NCBI GenBank assembly: GCA_026991575.1
Contig: JALXBF010000118.1
Span: 62,001-126,000 of the forward strand
Length of the DNA: 64,000 nucleotides
Direction: 5' to 3'
Source: Planctomycetota bacterium
GTDB lineage: Bacteria; Planctomycetota; Planctomycetia; JALXBF01
The notes under the pieces: generated by a model
Told to the model about the DNA's origin: nothing
Seen by the model: only the letters and a program-made list of their open reading frames with translations
Database searches by the model: none
Program-made: the position numbers and the translations under genes
Shown here: piece after piece, positions 4,569-11,803 of the stretch
How the letters are laid out: every line of letters begins with the position of its first letter
How positions within the stretch are numbered: the first letter of the stretch is position 1

Positions 4569-5672
4569 TCAGCGTCCCTTGCCCAGGAACACTTTCAGTG
4601 CGTCGTAGATGTTCTCTCGATCGCGAATCTCGGCTAGAGCGACGTTTTCCGCTTCGCCCACGGCTTCCTCCAGGTAATGCAGGAACAACCCACTGCCGTA
4701 CGGGCTCTCGACTTGCCCGTAGCAGAACAGGTTGCACGCGGGCAGCAAGTCCTCCTTCACGATGCGAATGGCATCGTTGTTGTCTTCTCCCCAGTTGTCG
4801 CCGTCGGAAAAGTGGAACGCGTAGATGTTCCACTCTTCGGGCGGGAAGTTCTGGCGAATCAGTTGGGCACAGAGCCGGTAGGCCGACGAAATCTTTGTGC
4901 CGCCACTTTCTCGAATGTGATAGAACGTCTCGCGATCAACCTCTGCCGCTTCCGCATCGTGTACGATGTAGCGGACCTCGACCCCCTTGTAGTGGGCTCG
5001 CAGCCAGGTGTCGATCCAGAAGGCGGTGATCCGGACAATCTCTTTCTGGTCGTCGGTCATCGATCCGGACACATCCATCATGTAGATGATGACAGCGTTA
5101 GCCTCGGGTTGTTGGATCCATTTCCGTGCCCGGTAGCGCTTGTCTTCTGGGAAAGGAACGATCTTGGGGCGCTGTGGGTCGTACTCTCCGGAGGCGATCG
5201 TGCGGCGTAATGCCTGCTTGAGCGTGCGTTTCATGTGCCGCAGCGACTCCGGGCCGGTCTGGCGGATGCTCGTGTATCGCGGGGACTGCTCGACGATGTT
5301 CTTCTTGCCCTTCGGCTCAATGCGGGGCAGTTCGAGTTCCTCGCCCAGCATCTGGGCAAGTTCCTCCAGTTCGATCTCCACTTCCAGGACGTGCTTGCCT
5401 GGCTCCTGGCCCGCCTCGCCGCTGCCGCCGTCGCCGGGGGCGGTTCCGATCGGGTCACCGACGTCACCATCCCCCTGACCCACCCCCCCATTGCCGCGGT
5501 TGCCATGACGGAAGTGGGGGATGTCGATCTGGGGGACCGGGATGGTGACCACGTGGCGGCCGTGTCGCCCGATCAGTTCCTCACGTGTCAAGTATTTGCG
5601 AAGGTTCTGGCGGATCTTGCCCCGCACGATCTCGCGGAAGCGCGCGTTGTCACGTTCGATCCGCTGAATCAC
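4569..5672 (-). CDS. yeaH: DUF444 (YeaH/YhbH) family protein with VWA-like fold
   Basis: 367-residue protein of the DUF444 family. Partner genes in other bacteria are prkA and spoVR, as here. The N-terminal third is basic and Gly-rich (residues about 60-95 hold a Gly/Asn/Asp linker). The C-terminal half holds a von Willebrand A-like domain with the MIDAS motif DVSGSM (near residue 200) and the later SDGDNWGEDN. GTG start at 5672 has AGGTGA just upstream. The gene lies 39 nt after prkA. In enterobacteria yeaG-yeaH responds to stress and nitrogen starvation; that role is carried over by analogy only. Confidence 0.92.
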   Translation of the reverse strand: MIQRIERDNARFREIVRGKIRQNLRKYLTREELIGRHGRHVVTIPVPQIDIPHFRHGNRGNGGVGQGDGDVGDPIGTAPGDGGSGEAGQEPGKHVLEVEIELEELAQMLGEELELPRIEPKGKKNIVEQSPRYTSIRQTGPESLRHMKRTLKQALRRTIASGEYDPQRPKIVPFPEDKRYRARKWIQQPEANAVIIYMMDVSGSMTDDQKEIVRITAFWIDTWLRAHYKGVEVRYIVHDAEAAEVDRETFYHIRESGGTKISSAYRLCAQLIRQNFPPEEWNIYAFHFSDGDNWGEDNNDAIRIVKEDLLPACNLFCYGQVESPYGSGLFLHYLEEAVGEAENVALAEIRDRENIYDALKVFLGKGR

Positions 5673-5711
5673 GAGTCACCTGCCCCGATGACCTGCGTCT
5701 TGCCCAAGGGG

Positions 5712-7763
5712 CTATTTGCGCGAGTCACCGCGTGCAAAGATGCTGGCTACGAAGCTAAGCACGTCCGAAGCACACACCTCACAGTAGCCGTAGTTGCGGA
5801 TGAGCCTTCCTTTGACGATGTCGATCTTCTCCTGAGTTGCTTCGTCGACCACGCCGGTCAGCAGACTGGTCAGCTTGATGGTGTCCTTCTGGTCCTCGAA
5901 CAGCTTCAGCTCGAGTGCCTTGTGCAGCCGCTCGTTCGTGCGGTAGTCGAATTGTTTGCCGTCCAGTGCCAGGGCCCCGATGTAGTTCATGATCTCGCGC
6001 CGGAAATCGTCCTTGCGACTCTCCGGAATGTCGATCTTCTCTTCGATCGACCGCATCAACCGCTCGTCCGGTTCTTCAAGCTGACCGGTGTACTTGTTGC
6101 GCACCTTCTCGCGCAGCGTGTACGCCCGTACGTGGTCGATGTAGTTAGCACACAGCCGCGCGAGGGCTTCCTCGTCGGCTGCGATCGCCCGCTGCACCTC
6201 GTTCTTCACGATGTTCTCGTACTCCTCCTTAACCACCTGGATCAGCTGGCGGCATTCCTGACGCTGCTCCTCGTGCGTGATGAGCGCATGGTGCTTCAGG
6301 CCGTCTTCCAGCTCATTCAGCACCATGAACGGATTGATGCAGCGTTCCTCAGGGTGTGCTACGAGCGCATTGGAGATCTTGTCCTGGACGTATCGGGGCG
6401 AAATCCCCTTCATGCCCTCCCGAGGCGCTTCCTCGCGAAGCTCTTCGATCATGTCCTCCGTGAAGCCAGGCAGCATCTTGCCGTCATACAGGCGCAGCTT
6501 CTGGAGCCTGGTGATGTTGCCCCGCTTGGGATCCTCCAGCCTTGTGAGCACAGCCCACATGGCGGCCATCTCCAGAGTGTGCGGCGCGATGTGCTTGCCC
6601 CGAACGGTCTTCTCGTTGAAGTACTTTTCGTAGATCTTGATTTCGTCCGATAAGCGGGTCACGTACGGGATGTCGATCTTGATCGTCCGGTCCCGAAGCG
6701 CTTCCATGAACTCATTGGATTGCAGCTTCCGGTACTCAGGCTCATTTGTATGCCCGATGATCACCTCGTCGATGTCCGTCTGAGGGAACTTTTTGGGCTT
6801 GATCTTGTGCTCCTGTGATGCACCGAGCAGGTCGTACAGGAAGGCAACGTCCAGCTTCAGAACCTCGACAAACTCAATCAGGCCACGGTTGGCCACGTTG
6901 AACTCACCGTCGAAGTTGAACGCGCGCGGGTCGGAATCACAGCCGTACTCGGCGATCTTGCGATAGTTAATGTCGCCGGTCAGCTCGGTCGAGTCTTGGT
7001 TCTTCTCGTCCTTCGGTTGGAACGTGCCAATGCCGACGCGGTCCTGCTCGGAAAGCAGTAGTCGATACACGCGCACGTCCTGGATGACCTTCAGCCAGTC
7101 GCCATGGTACTTCCGTAACCGTTCGGAGAACATCCGCCGGCAGAACGGGCAGAGATCACCTTCAATGACCACGTGGAAGTCGTCCGGCCCTCGGCCTTCA
7201 TTCAACCAGGCAAGGACCTGCGGCCGCATCTCCGTGGGAACCAGGTGCAGCGGTTCCTCGTGCATCGGACAAGGGGCAAAGTCCCGGCCGTCACCCGGAT
7301 CACGCCAACCAAACGTATACAGAGCCCCCTCGTCAGTGCGGCTGTAGCGTTCCAATCCTTTCTTCAGCAATCGAACAATCGTGCTCTTGGAGCTGCCAAC
7401 CGGGCCATGCAACAGCAACACACGCCGCTCAGGGCCCAGCCGTAGAGCGGCCGACTTGAGCACGTTGACGAGCTCTTGCAGCGGACGCTCAAGCCCGAAA
7501 ATAGCGTCCTGACCGCCGTCATCCGGGTCGTCGAAGAAGCGGTATCGGATCAGCTTCTGTTTGCCGATTCGGATCTCCTCGGTGCCATAGGAGAGGATCA
7601 TGTCGTACAGCCGCTGGAAGGCCGTCCGGGTGACTTCCGGACGCCGCCGCACGATCTCCAGATACTCTTCGAACGTCCCCTCCCAGTACTGCCGCGCGTG
7701 GGCCTCGCGCTGCTGCTCACTAAGGCGCTGCAAGAACGCACGGGTGTCGGTCACGCTGCTCAT
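5712..7763 (-). CDS. prkA: PrkA family serine protein kinase
   Basis: 683-residue PrkA/YeaG protein: an AAA+ type ATPase domain followed by the PrkA C-terminal domain. The P-loop reads [15 protein letters not shown] (about residue 100), the usual PrkA variant of Walker A. A Cys pair (FCRRMF region) and the conserved [12 protein letters not shown] block follow. Literature describes PrkA as a Ser kinase or as an AAA+ protease-like factor, so the activity is debated. I prefer ATG at 7763, which has GGAGG 8 nt upstream, over a GTG 30 nt earlier. It is the first gene of a minus-strand operon with DUF444, spoVR and a 158-residue unknown. Confidence 0.94.
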
Positions 7764-8458
7764 GAACCTCGCCTCCCGCCAGGACCGGCGCACGCTGCAT
7801 GGCTGGCGCGGTTGTGCCCGTTCTCTGGCTGATTACTGCCCGCTGGTGACTTGATCTCCGAAACTGGAAGCAGCCCCACGGAAGGGTGTGCAATCCCCCC
7901 GGACCGGACGGAGCGGTCTGCCACCTCGGACCCGCTCCACTATCCCGTCTGGCCGCCGCGCTCCAATGTGCTCGTTGCGGCGCCATCGGACGCTGTGCTC
8001 CTGCTGAATTCTACCTTGCACTACGCCGATGTGGTGCTCACGTGTTCACCCGTCGATGACTGTGGGGCAAACGTTTCGCGAGCACCGCAATTCCGGGGAG
8101 GGTCTACACACCACGGGAGGGCAGCCGACATGTGCCTCAAACACACACCCGACGCGGACGACTCTGTGGTGGTCTCGCAACGGTGGGCTCATCCAGGCCT
8201 GCGTTCAGGCCACGGCTGTACGCCGCGGTTTGTTTGCACACGGGATAGCCGTCCCTGCCGGCCAGGACTTCCTGTGGCGTCGGGGAGGCATTCGGCTCAC
8301 CGTAGTGCCTCCCGCTACCTACGACACCTAAATTGTGCACCTCGCCTCGCCTCGCGTCAACACGAATTCCAGCCGAACGCGCTGCACAACACAAACTGCT
8401 CCGAACCACACCGCCGGCCGACCACACGCACGGACGCACGATACGGTACCACGCCCAG
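7764..8458. other. Gene-free spacer upstream of prkA
   Basis: About 700 bases without a supportable gene. It separates the prkA start from the stop of the Gfo/Idh gene, both on the minus strand, so it should hold the promoter of the prkA operon. No clear -35/-10 pair, sigma-54 box or hairpin plus T-run could be identified by eye. Confidence 0.45.
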
Positions 8459-9526
8459 TCACTCCCCGTGCGCTGCGAGCAGCTCGGCCAAGGCCGGGAC
8501 CTGCACCGGGGCGTGCTCTTGCAGACTCCGGGCGACGGCGTCCGTAAACGCCATATAACGCAAGCCGGTGATCGGATCGGTGAAGCGGACCGGAGCGCCG
8601 GAGCGGATTGAGTTGATGAAGTCGGCTTCTACCTGCCAGCCACGCCGCCGCGCGGGAGGAACAGGTAATTCGCGAAATTCACCGCCAGCCTCGGCGACCG
8701 TCACCTCTTCCGTCGTACCAAACCGGCACTGCAACGTGGCTTTGCTTCCATACAGGGTGATCGAAACGCCTGGGCCGCCGTGCGCCACATGGCTCATGTG
8801 GTAGATGCCCATCGCGCCGCCCGGGAAGCGGGCCAGCACATGGACCGCATCCGGCAGCTCCACGGGAACCACCGCTCCGGTCGTCGGGTCTACCCGTTCG
8901 GGTACGAAAGCTTGAGCCTGAGCAAAAACCTCCACCGGGTCGGGCAGCCAGCGGATGAGCGTTTCGTGCAGGATGCCCAGCATCACCATGTTGATGCCGC
9001 TCAGCTCACGCACCTGCCGCCAACTCAGCGGCACCTGCTCATCCGCCCACTGGTCGTTCACCGCGACCACCACCACTTCCCGTAACTTCCCCAGCCTGCC
9101 GCTCTTCAGGTACTCAAGAACCGCATCGTGAATCTCCAGACCGAACGGGCTAGGGACAATCTGCAGTACCAGCTCCGGATGGCGCCGCGCCGCTTCTACC
9201 ATGAGCTGCGCTTCATGCAGAGAGCGTGCCATACGCGCTTCGCACAGCACGTGTTTACCCTGCTCCAGAGCTGCGACTGTGATCGGCGCGTGCAAATAGG
9301 GCCAGGTGCCGATGAGGATCGCGTCGATCTCGGGGTCCCGGACAAGGTCTTGCCATCGCTCATACCGGCGAGGAATGCCGTACTCGGCGGCTGCGCGCTG
9401 GGTCGAAGCAGGCGTACGGTTGCAGACGGCGACGATCTCCACATCGTCGCACCGCTGCAGGCCCGGGACGTGCCGCTCTCGGCAGTTGCGACCGAGCCCC
9501 ACGATCCCGACGCGTATCCGCGCCAT
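8459..9526 (-). CDS. Gfo/Idh/MocA family oxidoreductase
   Basis: 355-residue NAD(P)-dependent sugar or inositol dehydrogenase-like protein. The N-terminal Rossmann fold starts with VGIVGLG (residues 6-12). The conserved EKP catalytic motif of the family is replaced by EAR (residues 96-98, in HVLCEARMA), so the usual catalytic lysine is absent at that site; a subset of family members has this form. The C-terminal substrate domain is complete (HETLIRWLPDPVEV). GGAGG lies 7 nt before the ATG. It follows the FG-GAP selenoprotein gene by 58 nt on the same strand, so the two may be co-transcribed. Substrate unknown. Confidence 0.9.
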   Translation of the reverse strand: MARIRVGIVGLGRNCRERHVPGLQRCDDVEIVAVCNRTPASTQRAAAEYGIPRRYERWQDLVRDPEIDAILIGTWPYLHAPITVAALEQGKHVLCEARMARSLHEAQLMVEAARRHPELVLQIVPSPFGLEIHDAVLEYLKSGRLGKLREVVVVAVNDQWADEQVPLSWRQVRELSGINMVMLGILHETLIRWLPDPVEVFAQAQAFVPERVDPTTGAVVPVELPDAVHVLARFPGGAMGIYHMSHVAHGGPGVSITLYGSKATLQCRFGTTEEVTVAEAGGEFRELPVPPARRRGWQVEADFINSIRSGAPVRFTDPITGLRYMAFTDAVARSLQEHAPVQVPALAELLAAHGE

Positions 9527-9584: not shown

Positions 9585-10889
9585 CTACGGGTTCTTTCGC
9601 AAAAAGAGCCACACCCACCCGTGGTACTCGCGCGATCGGGGTAGTTGGGAGGAGATCTGCCGGTACTCGGTCAGCGTCTTCTGCAGCTGCTCTTGCAGCG
9701 TCGCCCGAGCCTGGGGGTCCTTGGCGCGGGCAAGCTGTCTGGCCAGTCGAGCATACTCGGCAAGCTTCTGCTGAGCTTTCTCGCGCAACGCAGCGACCCG
9801 CTCGGATTGCTCGCTGCTGAGGCTCTGCGGACCGGGCCGCCACGAGCAAAAGTCGCCCAGCAGAATGTCCAGCAAGCCATCGCCGTTGTAATCGGTGACG
9901 CAGATCTTTGCACGCATACCGTGGCGAGGCTTGTCGGGACGGTCGCTTGCCCCAGGGCCAATGATCTGACGGCCGGCAGCAAGCCGCGGTGACTCGCGGC
10001 TGCCGACGTTCTCAAAGAGCCACACGCTGCCGTTGCCTGCGCCGACGAGCAGATCCAGATCACCGTCACCGTCCCAGTCGGCCACGGCGGGACCGGCATC
10101 GCCGGAGGCGACTCTCAGAGGCTTGCCCTGGACCAGAAGCTTCTCTGCCGGACCGAACGCAGGCGCTTTCGGCGTACCTTCGTTGGGAACGAGCCAGACG
10201 TTGCCCCGAATGTCACCGACGATGAGATCGTAGTCCCCGTCACCGTCCCAGTCAGCCACACAAACAGCCGACGCGCAGCCAGTCCGCCCCACCGGGGTGC
10301 CGGCTGGAAACTCGTGACGCTGCCCGTTATAGATGACGACAGTCTTCTGGTCCGTTTGTTCGATCTCGGCATCACCAACCACAACCACCATGCGGCCTGA
10401 CTTGCGGATGCCGCCGCCAACGTTGATGACCCGACCGTCCTGATGCCTGAGCTTCTGTGGAGCGGCAAAATCACCGTTCGGCAGTCGCTTGAAGAAGTAG
10501 ATTTCACCGGGCCACGAGCCAGAGATCAGGTCCGTGAGACCGTCACCGTCCAGGTCCACTAACTGTGGACCAAAGCCGATGCATCACCCAGCAGGGACAC
10601 AGCCCTCCGGCTTGCCGTCTTTGAACAGCTTGCCGGGGCCGAAGCGGGGGGCATCGTTCGTACCGACGTTCTTGAAGATCCAAAGCTTACCGCCTCCGAA
10701 CTGGCCGACCAGCAGATCCCGGACTCCATCACCGTCGAAGTCGGCCAGTAGCGGTGCTGCATGGCCGACCTCAACATCGATCGGTTTCCCATCTGCTTCA
10801 ATGCGAACCGGTGGGTGGAACAGTTCATCAGCCCAGGCACCAGCCGTCAGCGCCGCAACAGCGGCAAGTACTGCAGAGCTTAGACGCAT
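9585..10889 (-). CDS. Secreted FG-GAP/VCBS repeat protein, probable selenoprotein (in-frame UGA)
   Basis: The gene is one open frame broken only by TGA at 10586-10584. Read as selenocysteine it gives 434 residues. Residues 1-20 form a signal peptide (MRLSSAVLAA...AWA). FG-GAP/beta-propeller calcium-type repeats follow, each with D-x-D-G-D-G (DFDGDGVRDLL near 50, DLDGDGLTDLI near 113, DWDGDGDYDLI, DWDGDGDLDLL, DYNGDGLLDIL). Sec is residue 102, next to Cys 103, in GCVPAG-U-CIGFGPQ. As I recall, planctomycete relatives have Cys-Cys here. The C-terminal 80 residues are helical and Lys/Gln-rich. ATG 10889 has GGGAGG 7 nt upstream; a TTG at 10907 is less likely. A pseudogene with one nonsense mutation is the alternative, argued against by the SECIS-like hairpin and the Cys position. 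Confidence 0.82.
10553..10571 (-). promoter_or_regulatory. Candidate bacterial SECIS hairpin of the FG-GAP gene
   Basis: Read on the minus strand, 12 nt after the UGA comes GGTCCAC (10571-10565), loop AGTTA (10564-10560), GTGGACC (10559-10553): a perfect 7-bp stem with a 5-nt loop. The loop starts 20 nt past the UGA and has G at its second position. This satisfies the published bacterial SECIS pattern (loop 16-37 nt from UGA, stem 4-16 bp, loop 3-14 nt, G in the first two loop positions). Folded by eye only. Confidence 0.7.
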
Positions 10890-11803
10890 CGCTTGGCCTC
10901 CCGACAATCACCGAGGTGCAGTCGACGAACACGACCACCAGTATAGCGAATCGAACGGCCCAGCCGACGATGCCGTCGTCGGGGCGACGAAGGCACCTCC
11001 GCTGTCCCCGGTACATCGGCGTTGCCGGTCACGCACGTGCCGTCTCGGCCAGCTGGTCGGAGCAACGGAGCATTTGCCGAAGCGTTGCGCCATAAACACG
11101 CCGCTTTCTTGCATGCATTCTTCGGGGGGGGAATACGAAGGCACCATGACGAGGCGCGGGTAACGACCGCTCCCAGATACCGAGGGGGGTACGACCTGGG
11201 CCGATGGCGGCGCATCGGGGCTCGACTGGGCGGACAAACCCGTGGAAGGGCGTAACGGCCCACCTGGTGCGTTGAAGTACGACGCCCTTGCGTTCTGGCT
11301 TCTGGGCGGTGGTGCAGCACTGCCGAATTGTCACTGCCGGGCCATGATGCAGCGACGAGCGGTGACATGGTGTCGATCGATGAGTGGTCTCCGAGCCCAT
11401 CGTCTAGCTCACCGAGGACATCGCACTGCTGCTCCTGCTGCCAGGCACATCTTCCAACGGTGGCAGCCCAAGCGTGTCGTCAACCAAGGATGGTCATAGC
11501 GCGGCGTGGTGTGCATCCGGGGGCGGTGAGGTGGTGGACGCGGGTCTGTGGCATTACTTCGGCCGGTGTTCCAGGCGTCGTTGTCGCCGTCGTGGGGCGG
11601 GGAAGCCCGGGGCGGTACCGGACGGTGCCGAATCGCAGGAGCGATTGGCATGCCAGCTGGCCGAGGTCGCTTGCTGCGGCCTTGGTTGGGCGACCGTGTA
11701 CGCAGCGGCTGAACGGGCCCCAGGGGCCCGCCAGCCGGTTTGCATCGGCGAGGCGGCTCGCTAAGCTAGTAGACAGTGACGCGACCGTTTCAGGGAGAAC
11801 GCC
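10890..11803. other. Gene-free spacer between divergent genes
   Basis: About 900 bases between the divergently transcribed FG-GAP gene (minus) and the aldo/keto reductase gene (plus), so promoters for both directions should be here. No frame has a recognisable domain. I saw no tRNA, no repeat array and no IS remnant. An 8-base G run occurs near 11124. Confidence 0.45.

Follow-up and report, generated by a model that had tools for sequence, protein, structure and literature searches.

A reading frame divided by a TGA codon

The window analysed here, a stretch of 64,000 nucleotides from a Planctomycetota bacterium, raises the question of whether a single TGA codon on its minus strand ends one protein ahead of another, or is read as selenocysteine (Sec) within one protein. 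Standard ORF calling returned two ORFs at this place, 10907-10584 (107 aa) and 10559-9585 (324 aa), which is what the original prediction had said gene callers would see. Translation of the minus strand from the ATG at 10889 to the TAG stop at 9585 found the TGA at 10586-10584 to be the sole internal stop, and with this codon taken as U the product (gene at 9585-10889, minus strand) had 434 residues and read M...GCVPAG-U-CIGFGPQ..., with U at residue 102 followed directly by Cys103. The product matched Pfam FG-GAP_3 (E 1.5e-24) with repeats flanking the TGA on both sides, and translation and repeats together bore out the proposal that one in-frame TGA splits a single FG-GAP frame. Reading of the sequence also placed a putative ribosome-binding site, GGGAGG (10897-10902, minus strand), 7 nt 5' of the ATG. 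Gene callers routinely split a selenoprotein gene into two proteins, and a truncated gene model is probably present in annotated genomes that hold a member of this family.

The protein is predicted to be exported. Its N-terminus (MRLSSAVLAAVAALTAGAWA, 10830-10889, minus strand) has the hydrophobicity of an export signal, with a putative cleavage site, and a simple hydropathy test found an N-terminal hydrophobic stretch in all 44 homologs with a complete N-terminus, from which a signal peptide is predicted.

The genes selA, selB, selC and selD, to whose presence the original prediction had tied its reading of the codon, were all found in the genome of origin (G000), where they lie adjacent in the order selD-selB-selA-selC (C184:25019-29790; loci L128, L112, L127 and L119). 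ARAGORN read the selC tRNA as SeC with anticodon TCA. The selD gene of this genome is itself interrupted by a TGA in frame (CAGUAGKL), and the hairpin after it has the loop AGGUU, a loop that is also frequent among the genes of the family described below, which we refer to as the Sec-propeller family.

Conservation of the codon and of a downstream hairpin

Homologs were drawn from relatives and from species genomes, and in a first alignment of 45 sequences the residue-102 column held TGA in 41 and TGC or TGT in 4; no other residue occurred, so that all 45 have Sec or Cys at the position on which the original prediction had staked itself. The Cys-Cys relatives that it named were likewise found in planctomycetes. 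Typical motifs at the column were GUCIGFGPQ and VWUCTSSTPQ, with NWUCIGMGPQ in later loci. A 33-member profile run against 392 Planctomycetota genomes detected members carrying a single TGA in 92 of them. Full-length Cys forms turned up in 7 genomes, six of these belonging to one genus and the seventh (L151) standing separate. Matches were present in 18 of 291 Armatimonadota genomes; TGA forms predominated, and there were at least two Cys forms (L222, L227) among them. TGA members occurred in 3 of 289 Verrucomicrobiota genomes and also in MAGs that carry the labels Acidobacteria (Vicinamibacteraceae) and Zixibacteria. Since over 100 genomes from several phyla, planctomycetes prevailing, keep a TGA at this one column, a TGA arising by chance or sequencing error is excluded. 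The family is present in about a quarter of the sampled Planctomycetota genomes, appears to be exported, is multicopy in some and nearly always has Sec over Cys. Several of its TGA members come from single-contig genomes, G013 and G433 for example. Genome G449 holds four Sec-propellers (loci L163 and L164-L165) and G245 a tandem pair (L166), and the paralogs of these two genomes fall into different motif subfamilies (VWUCTSSTPQ, NWUCIGMGPQ).

The distribution of selB followed that of the codon. Among the 392 Planctomycetota genomes, a full-length selB was present in 84 of the 92 TGA genomes as against 151 of the 300 others (Fisher p = 1e-13), and one of the 7 Cys genomes had it. The 8 TGA genomes with no full-length SelB match are drafts, 64-90% complete. 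These counts use the family cut-off (235 genomes), the looser threshold of E 1e-55 giving 259 genomes including EF-Tu-like matches. In the species search, selB was above the cut-off in 27 of the 31 genomes holding TGA members.

The hairpin that the original prediction described, a 7-bp stem with a 5-nt loop beginning 12 nt past the TGA, lies exactly so at 10571-10553 of the minus strand (GGTCCAC-AGTTA-GTGGACC; GGUCCAC-AGUUA-GUGGACC in the RNA). Taken by itself, the 71-nt stretch has an unexceptional folding energy (z = -0.93), and as such a single-sequence value is uninformative, the significance of the hairpin rests on comparison. We therefore compared 54 TGA sequences of equal spacing, using 5000 shuffles, with 7 Cys sequences. 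Within the stem the wobble base of a Pro codon (10566) pairs with the second base (10558) of a Val, Ala or Gly codon three codons downstream, and across the 54 genes this pair was A-T in 30, G-C in 19, C-T in 4 and G-T in 1, giving 50 of 54 paired as against 39.4 in shuffles, none of the 5000 reaching 50; the pairing combinations of Pro wobble and downstream base were summarised as A-T, G-C and C-G. A change of the pair is synonymous on the Pro side and alters the amino acid on the other (Val GTG, Ala GCG, Gly GGG), and such coupling is thus not expected from protein selection alone. The changes mapped on the tree numbered at least 17 and at least 13 for the two sides of the pair, and the covariation is for this reason a repeated one; sign tests on independent pairs went in the expected direction in 4 of 4, a result below significance with so few supported pairs.

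Further marks of the RNA were found outside the pair. The base at 10557, a free wobble position, was G in all 54 TGA genes but in none of the 7 Cys genes (log10 P = -23.6 for the 54, calculated from Val/Ala codon use in these genes and uncorrected for relatedness), and the codon preceding Pro had a wobble T in 49 of 54 as against 9% expected. In a later-fetched set both the pair and the G were kept in 23 of 23 TGA members (19 new, 4 repeating earlier members at L203, L210, L211 and L223), and the Cys forms L222 and L227 did not have the G. Relative to synonymous recoding, hairpin energy had a mean z of -2.08 in 41 TGA genes and 0.08 in 5 Cys sequences. The apical loop lies 19 nt after the UGA, with a G within its first two bases, a geometry that we take to fit the bSECIS consensus. 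Taken together, the comparisons indicate that the hairpin (10553-10571) is a SECIS element, under selection as RNA and lost in Cys forms, and the candidate put forward in the original prediction is upheld by this covariation and loss.

Against these data, a TGA acting as a real stop, whether in a pseudogene, through a sequencing error or between two separate proteins, is very improbable: it would account for the two ORFs of standard gene calling, but not for a column that keeps TGA across phyla, for a covarying hairpin that disappears with the codon, or for protein similarity that runs on past the TGA, and we reject it. We give still less credence to a genome-wide reassignment of TGA to Trp or Cys. 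The frame would indeed be open with TGA as Cys; however, homologs show Cys and never Trp at the column, family genes in many genomes use TGA as their terminal stop, selABCD and a tRNA-Sec(UCA) are present, the hairpin is under selection, and the Cys forms are found mainly in genomes that lack selB. Reassignment was rejected on these grounds. The TGA at residue 102 almost certainly encodes selenocysteine, the UGA being decoded, on comparative evidence, by SelB and tRNA-Sec(UCA) under the guidance of the downstream hairpin. Column, selABCD and covarying hairpin thus support the central claim of the original prediction, that an in-frame UGA hides a selenoprotein, and an exported FG-GAP beta-propeller selenoprotein is very likely the full explanation of the locus.

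On an unrooted tree of 63 members the Sec/Cys trait switched on two occasions, and the Cys forms sit within the Sec forms. Sec as the older state, with Cys derived by replacement, is on such a tree the simpler reading and not proof. In lineages that lack selB the family provides a plain case of Sec giving way to Cys that can be put to the test, and it suggests one reason why Sec decoding is kept by many planctomycetes. The separate Cys form at L151 (genome G276) has a broken stem and its genome still contains selB, and from the sequences it is read as a Sec-to-Cys change with no loss of the Sec machinery.

Fold of the protein and possible roles of the Sec-Cys pair

AlphaFold2 modelled the protein as a propeller with a mean pLDDT of 93.8 and a pTM of 0.89, in which a helical hairpin insertion (residues 359-413; 9648-9815, minus strand), of varying length among homologs, precedes the last propeller strand (421-429). 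FG-GAP_3 matched 33 of 33 members, and the DxDGDG motifs are largely invariant in the 33-member profile, their calcium binding being predicted only. In the model Sec102 is found in the loop that leads into the blade-2 inner strand (107-111), which, from general propeller topology, would place it on the face opposite the calcium-binding DxDGDG turns. Loops of an equivalent kind carry His43 (34 of 45 homologs), Arg326 (33 of 45) and Lys328 (26 of 45, with Arg in 12 more). Foldseek and profile searches of the PDB returned the FG-GAP propellers ITFG2, BBS2/7 and CRTAC1 and the lectins AAL2 and PVL, with Foldseek TM-scores to the nearest solved propellers of only about 0.3. By sequence and by fold alike, the PDB matches were non-enzymatic propellers and included no enzyme.

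The Sec-Cys pair of the original prediction stood in part. An adjacent Cys103 is common, being present in 41 of 45 homologs (91%), but it is not obligatory, as the other four have Ser, Asp or Arg instead, with a Cys at +2 in L013 and L016, at +5 in L003 and none nearby in L055. At L209 the pair is reversed, with Cys directly before Sec (-1) and none right after, which suggests that the vicinal pair matters and not its order.

We propose that the selenol is catalytic or sensing and cycles via a Sec-Cys selenylsulfide. It would work in the periplasm or on the cell surface, and candidate partners of Sec102 are His43 and Arg326/Lys328 of the equivalent loops. A redox role of this kind is the most likely of the functions considered, and is held tentatively at somewhat less than an even chance. 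Counting against it are the non-enzymatic nature of the nearest solved folds, neighbouring genes that are not conserved, and the homologs in which no Cys adjoins the Sec. Equally tentative is the wider picture of a large, mainly-Sec family in which a propeller loop may have been turned into the active site of an extracytoplasmic selenoenzyme, a non-thioredoxin selenol oxidoreductase, with Sec older and later replaced by Cys, for the most part where a lineage has no Sec decoding.

Two other roles were weighed against the redox couple. The propeller could be a binding or adhesion module comparable to integrins, CRTAC1 and the fungal FG-GAP lectins, its Sec-Cys pair forming a structural or regulatory selenylsulfide, and it is true that the nearest solved relatives (ITFG2, BBS2/7, CRTAC1 and the lectins AAL2 and PVL) bind or scaffold. 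Few structural half-cystines, however, are known to be retained as Sec across phyla. Sec is also metabolically costly, and it is usually catalytic in catalogued families of known function (PMC13188914), so that a binding module seems rather unlikely. The pair might alternatively join His43 as a ligand site for a soft metal or metalloid such as Cu, Hg or As, with no redox couple. The presence of His at residue 43 in 34 of 45 homologs would suit such a site, as would the gene for a Cu-type P-type ATPase-like protein found upstream at L175, L177 and L194, and soft metals can be bound by vicinal Sec-Cys or Cys-Cys pairs. The ATPase association is nevertheless limited to 3 of the 73 loci, of which two come from a single genus; no third ligand proved constant, and Cys103 itself gives way to Ser, Asp or Arg in four homologs; a metal site is accordingly judged unlikely.

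Relation to known selenoproteins and gene surroundings

FG-GAP and propeller entries are absent from a 2026 inventory that covers 119 families and subfamilies of prokaryotic selenoproteins (PMC13188914, Table 1) and takes in those of the 2023 and 2025 Haft papers, and no NCBIfam model came near its cut-off for the Sec-propeller protein. With no inventory entry and no NCBIfam fit, the protein therefore represents a new selenoprotein family, with a fold unlisted for Sec. The family was also absent from other searchable selenoproteome literature, and literature searches for selenoproteins with FG-GAP or VCBS repeats, or from Planctomycetota, yielded nothing on it; selenoprotein candidates from two planctomycetes are tabulated in PMC4807772 (Table S9). 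We regard it as a new family of a known protein kind, although a database annotation outside these lists may exist. Among the selenoproteins characterized to date a thioredoxin-like fold prevails (PMC13188914), and the Sec-propeller widens the range of scaffolds by one fold.

The repeated DxDGDG blades are common to the Sec-propeller and to the FG-GAP/VCBS propellers (PF13517, PF01839; CRTAC1 9etn, ITFG2 9van, AAL2 4tqm, PVL 2bwm), but none of these solved propellers is described with Sec, whereas in the Sec-propeller an invariant Sec or Cys occupies the loop ahead of the blade-2 inner strand. With bacterial selenoprotein families at large (PMC13188914) it shares a UGA-encoded Sec with a bSECIS, selABCD, Cys homologs and a Sec near Cys, and differs in the strong predominance of Sec forms over Cys forms and in the nesting of the latter within the former. 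A vicinal Cys-Sec pair is likewise known from the CU/UC selenoproteins SaoL, SaoC, HgcA, KCU-star and MbdU (PMC13188914); these are, however, unrelated families with the order CU, in contrast to the U-C order in a loop seen here. The thioredoxin-fold selenoproteins with UxxC or CxxU differ both in fold and in the spacing of the pair, the present family having a propeller and a vicinal U-C. Selenium-binding protein 1/methanethiol oxidase also has a propeller fold, though to our knowledge it is not an FG-GAP protein and has no encoded Sec. The PDB sequence search with the Sec-propeller gave no match to this protein, for which a copper-dependent thiol oxidase activity is described (PMC10362175).

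Across 73 loci no conserved neighbour genes were found. The P-type ATPase at L194 carries the metal-binding motif TCATCAGRIE, and a serine-peptidase-like gene lies near the Sec-propeller gene at 4 of the 73 loci. In the window itself a gene for a Gfo/Idh/MocA oxidoreductase (8459-9526, minus strand) starts 58 nt past the selenoprotein stop on the same strand, an adjacency that is not kept at other family members. Genes for a DUF444 (YeaH/YhbH-like) protein and a PrkA serine kinase, a recognised stress-related pair, lie next to each other at 4569-7793 (minus strand).
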